Notes: generated by a model not told the origin, from the letters alone. DNA of 64,000 nt from Actinomycetes bacterium (GCA_024276425.1 JAJRXF010000188.1:69545-133544), one strand, 5' to 3'; numbered from the stretch's first letter, positions 10,626-22,073 are shown. A program made the numbers and translations.

Positions 10626-11291
10626 ATGCGAAACCACCTGCGGTCAGAACCGGCCGCCTCCCTGCCTCGACCGAGCGCTGATAGGCCCAAAACCTTTCCT
10701 GGCCAAGATCGCCTGATTCGGCTTCGCCTCACACTGGACCGACGACGGCTTTCTGGTCTTGCGCTCGCCGCTCTCGTCTCACTTGGCGTGTACCAACTAA
10801 GTCTGAACTCCACCTCAGGAGAACTCGGGCCACTGATCCAGGTGAGTGTCGCCACCAGGGATCTGCCCAGCGGACACCAACTGCGGCCCGAGGACTTGGC
10901 CAGTCGCTGGTGGCCTCGCGACGTCTTACCAAGAGGAGCCACTATCACCTCACCGATTGGCCAAACTCTGGTGTCACCCCTCGCCCAGAATCAGGTTCTA
11001 CTCGAATCCGGCATGGCTCCTGGCTCACTCGGCCTACGAGCAGACGAGGTCGCCGTTACCCTTCCAATACCGCTGGCCCCGCCCCCCTTAGAGATCGGCC
11101 AGAGTGTTCTACTCATCTCAGTCCAGGCGTTTGAAGGCCCCTTCGTTCGCCCTGCAGCGCCAATCGCTACTTCACGAGTAGTGGCTATTGGCGACACCTC
11201 AGCCACTGTGGCCGTCCTGGCCGATGCTGCCAACGACATCATCGGCACCCTCGCCACCGGCGCAATTGAAATGGTAATCCTTCCCGATTGA
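10626..11291 (+). CDS. SAF-domain (CpaB-like) membrane-anchored protein
   Basis: Single TM then VATRDLPSGHQLRPEDLASRWWPRDVLP...GQTLVSPLAQNQVLLES. Confidence 0.7.
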   Translation: MRNHLRSEPAASLPRPSADRPKTFPGQDRLIRLRLTLDRRRLSGLALAALVSLGVYQLSLNSTSGELGPLIQVSVATRDLPSGHQLRPEDLASRWWPRDVLPRGATITSPIGQTLVSPLAQNQVLLESGMAPGSLGLRADEVAVTLPIPLAPPPLEIGQSVLLISVQAFEGPFVRPAAPIATSRVVAIGDTSATVAVLADAANDIIGTLATGAIEMVILPD

Positions 11292-11308: not shown

Positions 11309-12721
11309 TCAAGGCGTAACAGTGAACCCCTTGCGAACCTGTTGGCCCCATTCGGTTCTCCCCCGAAGAAACAGTTGAACGCCCCAGAGTCGCCATATCA
11401 GGGTGAGCGGCCGATAGAAAAGCTGCTCCAGGACTGCATATCCGATGAGAGCAAGGCGAAAGCGCAGTTTGGGATAGGTTCCAAAGGCAATCTCGTCGAA
11501 CAAAAGGGTGAAGATTGTTACCGCCGTTCCCAACCCGAGAATGGCACCAACGAGCCACAACACTGACCAGGGGATCAGTCCGAGAAACAAGCCGATCACT
11601 AGGACAAAAAGTCCGACCACCTCGATTAGTGGAGCCAGGAACTCCACCAGTAGGAAATAGGGCAGCGCCAACATCCCCGCACTGCCATAGCGTGGATTGA
11701 AGATCATTCGTCGATGCCGAGCGAGAACGTCCATGAGTCCTCGCTGCCACCGATTGCGCTGCCGAGCCAGAACCCGTACATCCTCAGGTGCCTCAGTCCA
11801 AGCAACCGGGTCGGGGAGAAACTCAACCCTGGCTCGCTCCCTGTTTTCGTAGGCTTGTCGCCGCAGCCGAACAATGAGTTCCATATCTTCGCCAATCGAA
11901 GAGGTTTCGTACCCACCAATATCCAGCACGGCCTGGCGATTAAAGAGCCCGAATGCTCCGGAGATAATGAGGTTGCCACCGAGTGGGTTCCAGCCAAGGC
12001 GGCCCACGATAAAGGATCGTATGTACTCAACGACCTGAAGTGCGGCGAGGGGCCTGCGAGGAACAACCAAGTTTGTTACATCCGACGCCAGAATCTGAGA
12101 ATCATTCGTGAGCCTCACCGTTCCCCCAACGGCCACGACGTTGTCATGGTCCATAAACGGAGCGACCAACAATTGCAAGGCGTCCGTAGCCACCAGAGTG
12201 TCGGCATCGATGGCGCAAACGAGCTCGCCAGAAGCAACGTTGAGCCCGGCGTTCAAAGAGTCCGCCTTACCGCCGTTGAACTTGTCAACCACCACGAGTC
12301 GAGCTTCCGTGCTCGAAAGATACAAATTCTTGACCGTGGCGGTATCCACTAGCCGTTGGAAGACTGGGTACACCGGGCGAAGGTCAAACCGTTCGGCAAG
12401 CACCTGAACCGTCCGGTCGGGGGATCCATCGTTGATAACCACGATTTCAAGGTTTGGGTAGGACAAGGCCAACAAGCCTTGGACCGTGTCACAAACCGAA
12501 ACCTCCTCATTGAATGCGGGAACTAGAACAGAAATCCGGGGCGCCAACGGGGATGCCATTACCCGACGCCAAACCTGGTGTCGATCACGAAGCCGTATTC
12601 GTCGCAACTCGACTATTGCCGAGGTCAACACCATCAACTGAAGGAACGTGACCAGAATCATCCATCCAGCCGACACATACACAACAATCTCTACCAAATC
12701 GCTTAAGGACCGGCCGATCAT
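11309..12721 (-). CDS. Family 2 glycosyltransferase, processive polysaccharide synthase type
   Basis: VLVPAFNEE, INDGSPD, AIDADT, GEDMEL, QRNRWQRG motifs plus multiple TMs. Confidence 0.9.
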   Translation of the reverse strand: MIGRSLSDLVEIVVYVSAGWMILVTFLQLMVLTSAIVELRRIRLRDRHQVWRRVMASPLAPRISVLVPAFNEEVSVCDTVQGLLALSYPNLEIVVINDGSPDRTVQVLAERFDLRPVYPVFQRLVDTATVKNLYLSSTEARLVVVDKFNGGKADSLNAGLNVASGELVCAIDADTLVATDALQLLVAPFMDHDNVVAVGGTVRLTNDSQILASDVTNLVVPRRPLAALQVVEYIRSFIVGRLGWNPLGGNLIISGAFGLFNRQAVLDIGGYETSSIGEDMELIVRLRRQAYENRERARVEFLPDPVAWTEAPEDVRVLARQRNRWQRGLMDVLARHRRMIFNPRYGSAGMLALPYFLLVEFLAPLIEVVGLFVLVIGLFLGLIPWSVLWLVGAILGLGTAVTIFTLLFDEIAFGTYPKLRFRLALIGYAVLEQLFYRPLTLIWRLWGVQLFLRGRTEWGQQVRKGFTVTP

Positions 12722-13866
12722 CCTGGCCCCCGAATCAAGACTGGAAGGCGCGCTGCTCCAACGTTAGAACTGGAGCGACGCCAAGCCGCCCCGGCTGGGG
12801 GGACGTCACTTGGCAATCCTGGAACCAGGGGAAGACCAGTCTGAGTGGCGCGCGCATCCAAGATTTGACGGGCCATTCCCCGGGCAAAAGGATCTCGATC
12901 ATAGAGATAGTGCCGCAGCAAGAGATGACCTGAAGGACCAAGCCGATCGAGTGCTCGTCCACTGGCTCGCCGAACAGCCCATGACGAGTCTCGAAGGCAG
13001 AGCGCGATGGCAGATACCGAGAGCTCACTCCCTAACATCTCCAACCCTCTTATGGCAGCCACTCGAACCGTTGACTCGTGGTCGGTCAACAAGCCCGTGA
13101 GCAGTTCTGCGGCTCCATGCCCGCCCCCCAGACCAATGGCCGTCGCTGCCATTGTTCTGGTACCCGAGTCTTCTGACCGGCAGAAGCGACTCAGCGGTTC
13201 CATCAATCGAGGGTCCGCCAAGTTGGCCGCCACCTCTAGCCCGTCCAGTTGTGCCTCATTCATCGGGTCCTCAAGGAATTCAATCAGGGCAGGCACAACC
13301 TCATCCCCGACCGACACCAGACGATCCTTGGCCGCTCGCCGCACGATCTCATGAGGCTCGCGAAGTAGTTCAAGCAGTTCAGGCAAGACTTCCTTGGCCT
13401 GTTGGCGGGTGAGGCTTTCCGCCGCGCGAGCCCGGCATAACCGGTGCGAGTCAGAAAGCAACTTGGCCCGGTCATAATTCGAATCGACAATCAGATACTG
13501 CAACTGAGCCGCTTGGATTCTGTTTCGCCAACGGCGGCTCTTGCCAAGGCGCCGAATGTGACGATCCAGGCCGCGAGCTCGAGCCAAGGTTTGCAACCGA
13601 CGACAGGCATCCCCCTCAATGTTTAGGGCCAGCGACTGGATCACGTCGAGCAGGATCCGTTTGGGTAACCGTCCAGCCCTACGGTGAACGGCCTCAGCTT
13701 CAAGGTCGGAGTCGAACAACAACACCGCCAGCTCACGAACCACCTGCTCTCGACGCCGCTGAACCAGAGCCACCCAAATGTCACGAACCGCTCCGACGCC
13801 AACGAATAGGACGATGAGGAACCCGACCAACCCCCAGGCAAGAACGAACGCTTGCTGTGAAGTCAT
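12718..13866 (-). CDS. Membrane-anchored HEAT-repeat protein
   Basis: N-terminal TM; repeated VRRAAKDRLVSVGDEVVPALIEFL and VRVAAIRGLEMLG units. Confidence 0.8.
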   Translation of the reverse strand: MTSQQAFVLAWGLVGFLIVLFVGVGAVRDIWVALVQRRREQVVRELAVLLFDSDLEAEAVHRRAGRLPKRILLDVIQSLALNIEGDACRRLQTLARARGLDRHIRRLGKSRRWRNRIQAAQLQYLIVDSNYDRAKLLSDSHRLCRARAAESLTRQQAKEVLPELLELLREPHEIVRRAAKDRLVSVGDEVVPALIEFLEDPMNEAQLDGLEVAANLADPRLMEPLSRFCRSEDSGTRTMAATAIGLGGGHGAAELLTGLLTDHESTVRVAAIRGLEMLGSELSVSAIALCLRDSSWAVRRASGRALDRLGPSGHLLLRHYLYDRDPFARGMARQILDARATQTGLPLVPGLPSDVPPAGAAWRRSSSNVGAARLPVLIRGPG

Positions 13867-15782
13867 CGATCGAGCGCCCGACGAATTCGATGAAAAAGAA
13901 GAGGTGCACTGAATGGTTTAGAAATGAAGTCATCAATGCCGAGTTCAAACGCGATCCGAAGCTCAGACTCGTTTGTTCTCGGCGACATCAAGATCAGTCG
14001 TACCAGTCCTAGGTGGCCTGCCTCTGACATCAGCCGCAGAAGCTGCATGCCATCGATATCTCGTTGATCGAGGTCCATGAGGACGACTCGTGGAAGAGTC
14101 GTCGATTCGCTGAGCATCTGGAGCGCTTCCAGTCCCGCCGAACAAAGAACCACACGGATTCCCCGACGCTCGAGCCCAGCCACGAGCACCCCACCAACGA
14201 TCGGGTCGGGATCCACAATCATCACGTCAACGGCTTGAGCCTGCCCACTTGTCTCATACGCGCCGGCAACAAAGCGATCCTCAAGCGCTTCCAACTTGGT
14301 CAGGATTAGCTCAGCCTGCTCCAAGGCAAGGTCCAGGGTTCTAGCCTCAGTCGGGCACACGACACAAGCTATGGAGGCTCCGTAGTCAACCAGACCGAGC
14401 TGCTCATACATCCCCAACATTCTCCCGATGAGTGCCTCCCGTCCGATGCCCTCGATTGCAATAACAAGGTGACGGGGATCCAACCGAGTAACGATCACCT
14501 CGCCACGGAACACGCGAGCGATCTCTTGGTCAATCGTCGCTGATGCCTCCCCCAACTGGGTTTCAGTTCTCACCAAGGAGAACCCAACTCCGCGCCGGCT
14601 TCGAATACCTGCCGCAAGCATGCGTTCGATCAACACCGCAGCACTGCCCCAGGGTTCAATCCGTCTACCCCGTTCCCGAGCAGAAAGTGGCTCGGTCTCA
14701 CTGCGCCGAGCTAGTCTCGCCTTGATCAAAACACTCAGTTCATCGAGATCGACCTCAGGTGAAACATAGAGGTCGGCGCCCTTGCGCAAGGCATCATGAT
14801 GACGGATGACATCGACGCTCTCATCGATGAGAACCACGACAACGGACCGAAGCTCTGGATCCGTTCGAATCAGACGCAGGACCGCGTGCCGCTCGATCCG
14901 ATCCACCACATCATGCGGGGTCAAGACAACCGATCGGGTCTGCCCAGACCGAATCGAAGCGAACAAGTTCGTGAGATTGGACTCCCAGGAGGCATCGAGT
15001 CCGCGGTGAGCCAGCCGGTCGCTGAGCCACTGTGCCCCATGTCCAAATACAGTCACTGAACGCGGTTGACGATGCCTCAGTACCGCCCGTTGCACCTCGA
15101 CGATTATCTCCGCCGGCCCCTCCTTTGAATGGTCCAGGATCGTTGTTGCTGATTGGGCCACCGCTATGCGAAGGCCGATCGATGGTGAGGGAAGAACGGC
15201 GACGACAGGCAACGAGGGATGCCGGTGACGTACCCCTTCTATCAACTGCTTGGCCTCTTGCGGGTCCAACTGATCCAGCACGACGACGATTGCGCCAGCA
15301 TCCTCATGACCAAGAACCCCATCACCAACATGTTCAACCACCAAACCCTGACTCGCAGCAGTCCAGATGAGCTCATCCAGAATCGGACTGAGGGATCCAA
15401 CCACCAACAGCCTGAATGCCGTTCGAGGTGCTAGCCGAAGATCCCGTGATGAGATGGCAACCAGCGTTCTGGCATCATCAAGAAGCGAAGCAATGCTGAT
15501 TGCCTCGGAGGGACCGACCGTGCCGGGCCCCAACACGCGTCCAACGTCACGAAGAAGGTCAGCTGCGGGACTAAACCCGAACGTGCCCAACAACACCGCA
15601 ACCTCATCAGCCAGTTCCTTCGCCCTATCCAACTCCAGTGGCTCCAGGACGCGATCATAGAGAACCGAAACCAGCTCTTCGAGTTCTCGCAGAGGTGAAT
15701 CAAGACGCACATGAACCCGACTCCAGACAGAGTCAAGGAGCTCCGATGAGGAGACACGGGAATACTGAGTGGCGGCTGACAC
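13863..15782 (-). CDS. Multi-domain response regulator: N-terminal helical domain, central receiver-like regions, degenerate GGDEF, C-terminal receiver
   Basis: C-terminal VMIVDPDPIV...VVLMDLDQRDIDGMQLL...GIDDFISKPFSAPLL; GGDEF fold with signature replaced by DPRHLVIAIEG. Confidence 0.75.
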   Translation of the reverse strand: MSAATQYSRVSSSELLDSVWSRVHVRLDSPLRELEELVSVLYDRVLEPLELDRAKELADEVAVLLGTFGFSPAADLLRDVGRVLGPGTVGPSEAISIASLLDDARTLVAISSRDLRLAPRTAFRLLVVGSLSPILDELIWTAASQGLVVEHVGDGVLGHEDAGAIVVVLDQLDPQEAKQLIEGVRHRHPSLPVVAVLPSPSIGLRIAVAQSATTILDHSKEGPAEIIVEVQRAVLRHRQPRSVTVFGHGAQWLSDRLAHRGLDASWESNLTNLFASIRSGQTRSVVLTPHDVVDRIERHAVLRLIRTDPELRSVVVVLIDESVDVIRHHDALRKGADLYVSPEVDLDELSVLIKARLARRSETEPLSARERGRRIEPWGSAAVLIERMLAAGIRSRRGVGFSLVRTETQLGEASATIDQEIARVFRGEVIVTRLDPRHLVIAIEGIGREALIGRMLGMYEQLGLVDYGASIACVVCPTEARTLDLALEQAELILTKLEALEDRFVAGAYETSGQAQAVDVMIVDPDPIVGGVLVAGLERRGIRVVLCSAGLEALQMLSESTTLPRVVLMDLDQRDIDGMQLLRLMSEAGHLGLVRLILMSPRTNESELRIAFELGIDDFISKPFSAPLLFHRIRRALDR

Positions 15783-20675: not shown

Positions 20676-22073
20676 CTACTGGCCGCTAACCCGTTCGCTA
20701 ATTGCTTTGGCCAGCTTCGCTCGCTCGAGGACGCCCCGAAGGTCGCTGGCAATTTCCTCGGCTGGTGCCGGACGGCCGAACAAGAAGCCCTGAATGAGGT
20801 CACAGCCAAGTTCAGCCAATATTTCTGCCTGGTACTCAGTCTCCACCCCTTCAGCTATCACCGCACACTCAAGTTGATGGGCCAGACTAATCAGAGAACC
20901 CACAATGATCTTGTCTTCCTCGGCTAGGCCGAGTCCACCAACCAGAACGCGGGGCAACCGGATCACGTCGAAGCGACAACGTCGCAGAAGGTCCGGAGAC
21001 CCAAAGCCCACTCCAAATCCTTCCAGCGCAATTCCGACCCCTTCAGCCTTGACTTGCTGTAGAGCGGGCCACATTAGATGGAGCTGCACACCAGCCGTCC
21101 CTCCATTCACGTCAATCAGGATCTGGTTCGGCCGGACTCCAAGATCGACGATGGCCGAAGTCACAGAGCGGGCGAATCGAGAGTCCAATACGAAGGACGG
21201 GTCAAGGTTCATGGCGCAAAAGAGATTCGGTTGGCCAAGCTTTCGATCCCACTCGGCTACATGGGCGATTGTTTCCCGCAAAATCCAAGCGTGCAGTGGT
21301 ACGACAATAGGCGATGACCTAAGGGCCTCAAGGAAAAGTCCGGGGCCGATGAGTTCTGCGCCAGCGATGCCAGCATCGGGCGATAGCCAGCGCAGGAACG
21401 ACTCGAATCCAACCAGAGCACCCGTTGGTAGGGAGACAATGGGCTGGAAGAACATCTGGAACTCTTCGTTGTCGAAAGCCTGCTGGAGCCGCACCGCTAA
21501 GACCTCGGGAAGGCGGCTCCGGCCGTAGGATTCCTGCCGGATTACCAGATCAACCGATTCAGCTCTTGCCTCGACCAGGGTGGCCTCAAGATCAACAAGA
21601 AGAACTCGCTCATTCGACTCTGATTCACAAAGCAAACCAGCAACCGTCACCTCAAGGGGAACAACGAATGACTCGAAGGAAACCTGCTCGGGAAGGGCCG
21701 TCGACAACTCATCGGCTACTCGTCGAACGTCATCATTGCCAAATACCCCGGGCCACATGACGGCAAACTCTGAACCAAGATAACGAGCAATCTGACCCCG
21801 ATTGCCAACCGAGGTGGCTAGCGAGTCGGCAACCGCCTGCAGCACCTCATCCCCCACAGCACTGCCGTAACCAGCATTGATCTTGGTCAGGTTGGAAACG
21901 CTAAAAAGAAAGAGTGCGCAACGATCCCCAGTGCGGCGATTGCGCTCAAGTTGGTTCGACAGCCATGTCTCGAACTGCCAACGGTCGGGAAGCCCTGTCA
22001 AGGCATCGATGTGTCTGTCATCTCTGTCTTGAATGGCGAGATGTCCACTCGGTGACGCCCGATGGATGCTCAT
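20676..22073 (-). CDS. GGDEF-EAL tandem protein, both domains degenerate
   Basis: GGDEF fold with LGSEF; EAL fold with FESFLRW, LIDVNGG and LEGFGVGFGS in place of EAL, LEITE and DDFG. Confidence 0.85.
   Translation of the reverse strand: MSIHRASPSGHLAIQDRDDRHIDALTGLPDRWQFETWLSNQLERNRRTGDRCALFLFSVSNLTKINAGYGSAVGDEVLQAVADSLATSVGNRGQIARYLGSEFAVMWPGVFGNDDVRRVADELSTALPEQVSFESFVVPLEVTVAGLLCESESNERVLLVDLEATLVEARAESVDLVIRQESYGRSRLPEVLAVRLQQAFDNEEFQMFFQPIVSLPTGALVGFESFLRWLSPDAGIAGAELIGPGLFLEALRSSPIVVPLHAWILRETIAHVAEWDRKLGQPNLFCAMNLDPSFVLDSRFARSVTSAIVDLGVRPNQILIDVNGGTAGVQLHLMWPALQQVKAEGVGIALEGFGVGFGSPDLLRRCRFDVIRLPRVLVGGLGLAEEDKIIVGSLISLAHQLECAVIAEGVETEYQAEILAELGCDLIQGFLFGRPAPAEEIASDLRGVLERAKLAKAISERVSGQ

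Follow-up and report, generated by a model that had tools for sequence, protein, structure and literature searches.

Architecture of the locus

Three adjacent genes on the minus strand of a 64 kb stretch of DNA (the window; JAJRXF010000188.1:69545-133544 of the Actinomycetes bacterium assembly GCA_024276425.1) encode a regulator (REG), a HEAT-repeat membrane protein (HEAT), and a processive-type glycosyltransferase (GT2), transcribed in this order. The family to which they are compared here is the Acidimicrobiales. The three open reading frames, their positions, and the two 4-nt overlaps joining them are as an earlier note on this DNA had described them (Table 1). The note took the overlaps to imply a fixed stoichiometry. 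Coupling by a 4-nt overlap shows no such thing, and overlaps of this length are ordinary here: at least nine neighboring pairs among the long open reading frames of the window have them, two of which belong to the trio. Hence, the overlaps of the trio alone say little.

Table 1 Features of the trio and its surroundings. Positions are counted from the first letter of the window; residue numbers refer to the encoded proteins.
Feature	Position	Strand	Description
REG	13863..15782	-	regulator, 639 aa, GTG start; pseudo-HPt / pseudo-REC / pseudo-REC / signature-less GGDEF / REC
REG 12-117	15432..15749	-	four-helix bundle, HPt-like by fold prediction; Pfam Hpt in 24/56 regulators at this position
REG 124-238	15069..15413	-	first receiver-like domain; no recognizable phospho-Asp
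REG 242-361	14700..15059	-	second receiver-like domain; phospho-Asp lost
REG 375-511	14250..14660	-	GGDEF-fold domain without GG(D/E)EF; this copy R426-G-E-V429, RxxD lost
REG 519-638	13869..14228	-	C-terminal receiver; D570, S600, K622 present; second acid-pocket residue P525
REG/HEAT overlap	13863..13866	-	4 nt; 4 nt in 12/16 loci measured
HEAT	12718..13866	-	382 aa; N-terminal membrane helix, then HEAT repeats; PF13646 match
HEAT/GT2 overlap	12718..12721	-	4 nt; 4 nt in 13/16 loci measured
GT2	11309..12721	-	470 aa, processive-type glycosyltransferase; mean pLDDT 93; hyaluronan synthase fold
GT2 DAD (D172, D174)	12200..12208	-	nucleotide/metal motif; invariant in 44 relatives
GT2 GED (E278, D279)	11885..11893	-	catalytic-base motif; invariant in 44 relatives
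GT2 QRNRW (Q321-W325)	11747..11761	-	processivity-associated; Q321, R322, R324, W325 invariant in 44 relatives
SAF-domain gene	10626-11291	+	CpaB-like protein; converges on GT2
GGDEF-EAL gene	20676-22073	-	adjoins dxs
Flanks of the trio			galU, fmdB, SAF, pmbA; further out moaA-like, GGDEF-EAL

Conservation within the family

A full-length relative of REG is found in 19 of 39 family genomes and in 8 of 11 genera, at 21 loci altogether. REG, HEAT, and GT2 follow one another in the same order at 16 of these loci, the window included; L041, whose assembly interrupts the GT2 frame, is counted among the 16. The remaining five consist of one contig that ends inside REG and four loci of a single genus with a degenerate third gene. 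The trio occurs in at least two genomic contexts, either at the site between tldD-pmbA and galU-moeA, where the window copy lies, or in unrelated surroundings, and is thus kept as a unit and not through its neighborhood. Identity to the window proteins within the family is 24-52% for REG, 29-48% for HEAT, and 51-77% for GT2, whose motifs are retained and whose frames are open over several genera.

The four cassettes with a degenerate third gene come from four species of that genus (L052:5404-6612, minus strand; L053:12605-13909; L057:12230-13480; L058:4770-6035). They occupy the same tldD-pmbA/galU site and contain REG and HEAT, followed by a GT2-like gene lacking DAD, GED, and QxxRW. These third genes share 35-46% identity between species and their frames are open, and two of the four genomes also carry a normal cassette elsewhere. 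Judged from the sequences, this genus seems to retain an entirely non-catalytic version of the system.

Distribution beyond the family

The earlier note had proposed a search for the trio in other genomes. In a wide scan, a GT2 alignment was compared with one genome per species, and loci were picked on GT2 similarity only. This yielded 80 loci, spread over about a dozen phyla, among them Actinomycetota, Gemmatimonadota, Acidobacteriota, Myxococcota, Neomarinimicrobiota, Cloacimonadota, Bacillota, Bacteroidota, and Pseudomonadota. The gene directly upstream of GT2 matches HEAT_2 in 70 of 72 relatives; as the loci were chosen by GT2 alone, this association is not built into the sample. Where a gene upstream of HEAT could be called at the regulator position (n = 56), Pfam recognizes a receiver in 55, GGDEF in 26, and HPt in 24. 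An even phylum sample contains a GT2 of this type in 43 of 247 genomes, and HEAT lies beside it in 27 of 29 fetched loci, the two exceptions being located on short contigs. The unit is also carried by annotated plasmids of Deinococcus, Mesorhizobium, Erythrobacter, Legionella, and Haloarcula, the haloarchaeal plasmid encoding a response regulator, HEAT, and GT2. A search of viral contigs with GT2 returned zero relatives. The trio is hence kept both in the family and in about a dozen phyla. The earlier note had named restriction of the trio to this genome as a refutation, and the result does not refute it: GT2, HEAT, and receiver protein are a real, conserved unit and very probably an exopolysaccharide synthase, as the note had supposed.

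Diderm relatives often add an outer-membrane exporter of the YaiO/TPR type, which is also seen on diderm plasmids. Among 50 further neighbors, 16-17 match YaiO/TPR outer-membrane proteins and 7 resemble the PgaA porin. In the genome of the window, the YaiO barrel PF19413 has no match, while the Escherichia coli positive control was detected. In Bacteroidota, a sulfatase/LTA-synthase-like domain is fused or adjacent to GT2, hinting at decoration of the polymer. The fusion is seen in Kaistella (L132:8010-11429), and a gene of this kind is adjacent or close by in L119 and L143.

The predicted synthase

The processive-synthase motifs DAD, GED, and QRNRW, already recognized in the earlier note, are borne out by the invariance of their key residues. 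The predicted structure begins with helix 2-48, which is followed by the catalytic domain, helix 315-335, and the C-terminal helices 343-380, 385-413, and 419-452. Among solved structures, hyaluronan synthases come closest in fold (E 2e-16), followed by cellulose and chitin synthases. By its DxD, ED, and QxxRW motifs and its predicted membrane helices, GT2 belongs to the processive GT2 fold class, and sequence and model are most naturally read as those of a processive synthase that exports its product.

GT2 scores below all curated equivalog cut-offs tested, the best being PgaC/IcaA (TIGR03937) with 151.6 versus 422.3 bits; on the CelA family it reaches 67 versus a cut-off of 699. A PilZ domain gave no match in GT2, and no characterized orthologue was found in NCBIfam, the PDB, or the open literature. 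Two candidates were rejected. E. coli YaiP, which lacks a HEAT neighbor, reaches 60 bits on the profile, where the window GT2 scores 695; L002, the second strong GT2 of the window genome, reaches 32 bits and is not a paralogue of the unit.

The HEAT-repeat protein

HEAT matches PF13646 with 83.4 bits (cut-off 27.7). In line with the HEAT-repeat membrane protein of the earlier note, HEAT repeats and an N-terminal hydrophobic helix are both present, the helix at about residues 6-24 and the repeats at about 135-315. The basic residues after the membrane helix predict that the repeats are cytosolic. A single membrane helix is common to 65 of 72 HEAT relatives. The role of a coupler, which the same note had assigned to HEAT, is plausible.

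The regulator and its lost chemistry

The best solved fold match of REG is PleD (E 4e-14, about 470 columns, residues 124-511); the different placement of the domains keeps the whole-chain TM-score to PleD low. REG descends from a cyclase of the architecture HPt-REC-REC-GGDEF-REC. The multi-receiver regulator of the earlier note thus stands with its two receiver-like domains, its C-terminal receiver, and its GGDEF-like domain devoid of a signature, and is to be extended by the four-helix N-terminal domain, which was left unmentioned. Its description of the C-terminal receiver as intact holds in part: the domain matches PF00072 with 60.8 bits (cut-off 30.2) and has D570 and K622, but Pro525 breaks the acidic pair and Ser600 occupies the Thr position, so that REG does not have the full phospho-receiver set.

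Residues were counted in 22 members of the Acidimicrobiales clade and 12 full-length relatives outside of it. The HPt phospho-His is present in 0/22 versus 10/12, the clade having E, D, N, S, Q, or R in this column, and the phospho-Asp of the second receiver likewise in 0/22 versus 10/12. GG(D/E)EF is found in 0/22 versus 3/12. Intact GGEEF or GGEEI occurs in L065, L067, and L070. In the last receiver, the second acid-pocket residue is acidic in 0/22 versus 11/12 (P in 18 clade members, G or S in the rest), and Thr at the switch position occurs in 0/22 versus 11/12, whereas Lys is universal (22/22 and 12/12). The last phospho-site is Asp in 7 and Glu in 15 clade members, compared with 10 and 2 outside. 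On the GT2 tree, the rows with dead regulators are set apart by a branch with a support of 100, and neighboring rows have an intact HPt and GGEEI; the losses therefore go back to a single branch. At position 570, this tree requires about five changes between Asp and Glu. D570 is present in the window and its congener, and Asp may have reverted in this genus.

The RxxD pattern is the inhibitory site for cyclic di-GMP (c-di-GMP) in cyclases. An I-site-like RxxD is kept in 20 of the 22 clade members (L042 and L046 are examples) and is missing in the window (R-G-E-V) and its congener (R-D-D-A).

In other phyla, hybrid or membrane kinases lie beside the unit in 5 of 9 cases tested, several of these relatives having intact regulators. 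By contrast, no kinase is found among the examined genes flanking the window trio (galU, fmdB, SAF, pmbA, moaA-like, and GGDEF-EAL). The earlier note had considered the synthase to be gated by phosphorylation. Given the missing kinase and the residue losses, such gating is unlikely in this lineage. Kinase and chemistry have thus disappeared, whereas the regulator gene still exists in its old place next to an active synthase; in the simplest account, REG is probably a structural or binding subunit here.

Proposed mechanism and alternatives

The observed conservation of the unit, its folds and motifs, and the residue losses can be accommodated in one membrane machine. Herein, GT2 would be a processive synthase that carries the channel helices, draws on an activated nucleotide sugar at the cytosolic face of the membrane to build a sugar polymer, and then extrudes it. 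HEAT would be its obligate partner, with the membrane helix beside GT2 and the cytosolic solenoid docking both synthase and regulator, a role comparable to that of PgaD- or BcsB-like subunits. REG descends from a phosphorelay-controlled diguanylate cyclase, which in other phyla would be phosphorylated by a kinase encoded nearby and would supply c-di-GMP right at the synthase. The Acidimicrobiales clade of the window has lost this chemistry on one branch, and REG would now most likely be a non-enzymatic subunit, its receivers sitting in one fixed, possibly active-like state. Control would then remain through protein binding or, in most relatives, through c-di-GMP at the retained RxxD site.

On sequence and model grounds, we consider it reasonably probable that the trio is a widespread synthase-dependent exopolysaccharide module with a HEAT partner, in which the pseudo-regulator of this lineage serves as a scaffold and perhaps binds c-di-GMP. 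Several points weigh against this reading. This genus has D570, through which an orphan kinase or acetyl phosphate might still phosphorylate REG to some extent; the REG model has a pTM of 0.54, leaving its domain arrangement uncertain; the window genome is a 203-contig assembly; and the neighbor gene calls at distant loci are mechanical.

REG might instead act mainly as a receptor, its signature-less GGDEF domain binding c-di-GMP at RxxD and activating the synthase via HEAT. The retention of RxxD in nearly the whole clade despite the loss of GGDEF in all 22 members speaks for this, as do the contents of the window genome (G000): with more than 20 GGDEF matches and a single weak PilZ match, most of its c-di-GMP receptors must be unrecognized, and GT2 itself has no PilZ. 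However, the motif is replaced in precisely the window and its congener, and its D can persist for structural reasons; we hold this alternative to be unlikely, though worth keeping in sight. GT2 could also be an enzyme that makes single transfers to a lipid or protein, with the cassette modifying the envelope. Its model contains just four long helices of membrane type, fewer than hyaluronan and cellulose synthases have, and its neighbors in the window include no accessory polymer genes, but the fold ranking, the QRNRW motif, and the linked outer-membrane exporters of diderm relatives make this quite improbable.

A similarly low standing, if not a slightly lower one, is given to the model of the earlier note, in which an unlinked kinase phosphorylates the last receiver and thereby gates the synthase through HEAT. 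It can draw on D570, S600, and K622 in the window, on D570 in the congener, and on the relatives in other phyla that combine intact receivers with adjacent kinases; it is opposed by the replaced acid-pocket residue, by the Glu that occupies the phospho-site in most of the clade, and by the lack of a kinase among the examined genes around the trio. That the cassette is decaying and without present function is very improbable indeed. REG and HEAT diverge fast, and one genus holds a further cassette with a catalytically dead GT2, but GT2 itself is much better conserved and has its motifs, frames are open in several genera, and the overlaps persist.

Genomic surroundings

In several relatives, the SAF-domain, CpaB-like gene is likewise found between the cassette and galU/fmdB, although with an identity of only 29-42%. 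galU was considered as an operon member and rejected, since two opposite-strand genes intervene in one context and it is absent beside the unit in others. The order of the GGDEF-EAL gene and dxs is kept in several family genomes.

Novelty and implications

The components are familiar, and as a set they belong with the synthase-dependent exopolysaccharide systems, the pseudo-regulator being the twist of this lineage. The earlier note knew of no characterized polysaccharide system with these genes, and no equivalent came to light in NCBIfam, the PDB, or the open literature. No description of the gene set was found in the literature or the curated families tested, with the literature covering open papers only, so that this absence is weak evidence. 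More tentatively, the trio could define a widespread, undescribed class of exopolysaccharide machine that is characterized by GT2 and an obligate membrane HEAT protein and whose dedicated cyclase became a catalytically dead scaffold in the Acidimicrobiales, either switched on permanently or sensing c-di-GMP. If so, many bacteria and some archaea would share a HEAT-defined type of polysaccharide synthase that apparently nobody has characterized. Its cultured carriers, including Bacillus, Solirubrobacter, Vreelandella, Mesorhizobium, and Haloarcula, make it readily testable. The Acidimicrobiales series would then be a natural experiment in which a signaling enzyme turned into a pseudo-enzyme subunit with its operon partners still active.

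Comparison with known systems

The poly-N-acetylglucosamine synthase PgaC/IcaA is likewise a processive inner-membrane GT2, and the diderm relatives of the trio share the TPR outer-membrane porin with it. Similar to the trio, it works with a small membrane partner (PgaD) and a link to c-di-GMP. However, the partner in the trio is a HEAT protein, and no PgaD- or PgaB-like gene is seen beside it. The cellulose synthase BcsA and the hyaluronan synthases have the catalytic fold and motifs of GT2 in common, whereas GT2 has fewer helices and no PilZ domain like the C-terminal one of BcsA. PleD and other REC-REC-GGDEF cyclases share the fold of REG 124-511; REG differs by lacking GG(D/E)EF and the phospho-Asp of its first two receivers and by its additional HPt-like domain and C-terminal receiver. 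E. coli YaiO-YaiP resembles the relatives of the unit in that a YaiO-type outer-membrane protein lies near a GT2, but YaiP is low-scoring and no HEAT gene neighbors it. The exopolysaccharide synthase NfrB of E. coli is bound directly by a dedicated, active diguanylate cyclase, DgcJ, and senses c-di-GMP via its own MshEN domain; a HEAT partner is unmentioned (PMC8669469). NfrB-DgcJ and the trio both pair a synthase with a dedicated protein of cyclase type, but DgcJ is active, NfrB contains MshEN, and the HEAT protein belongs to the trio.

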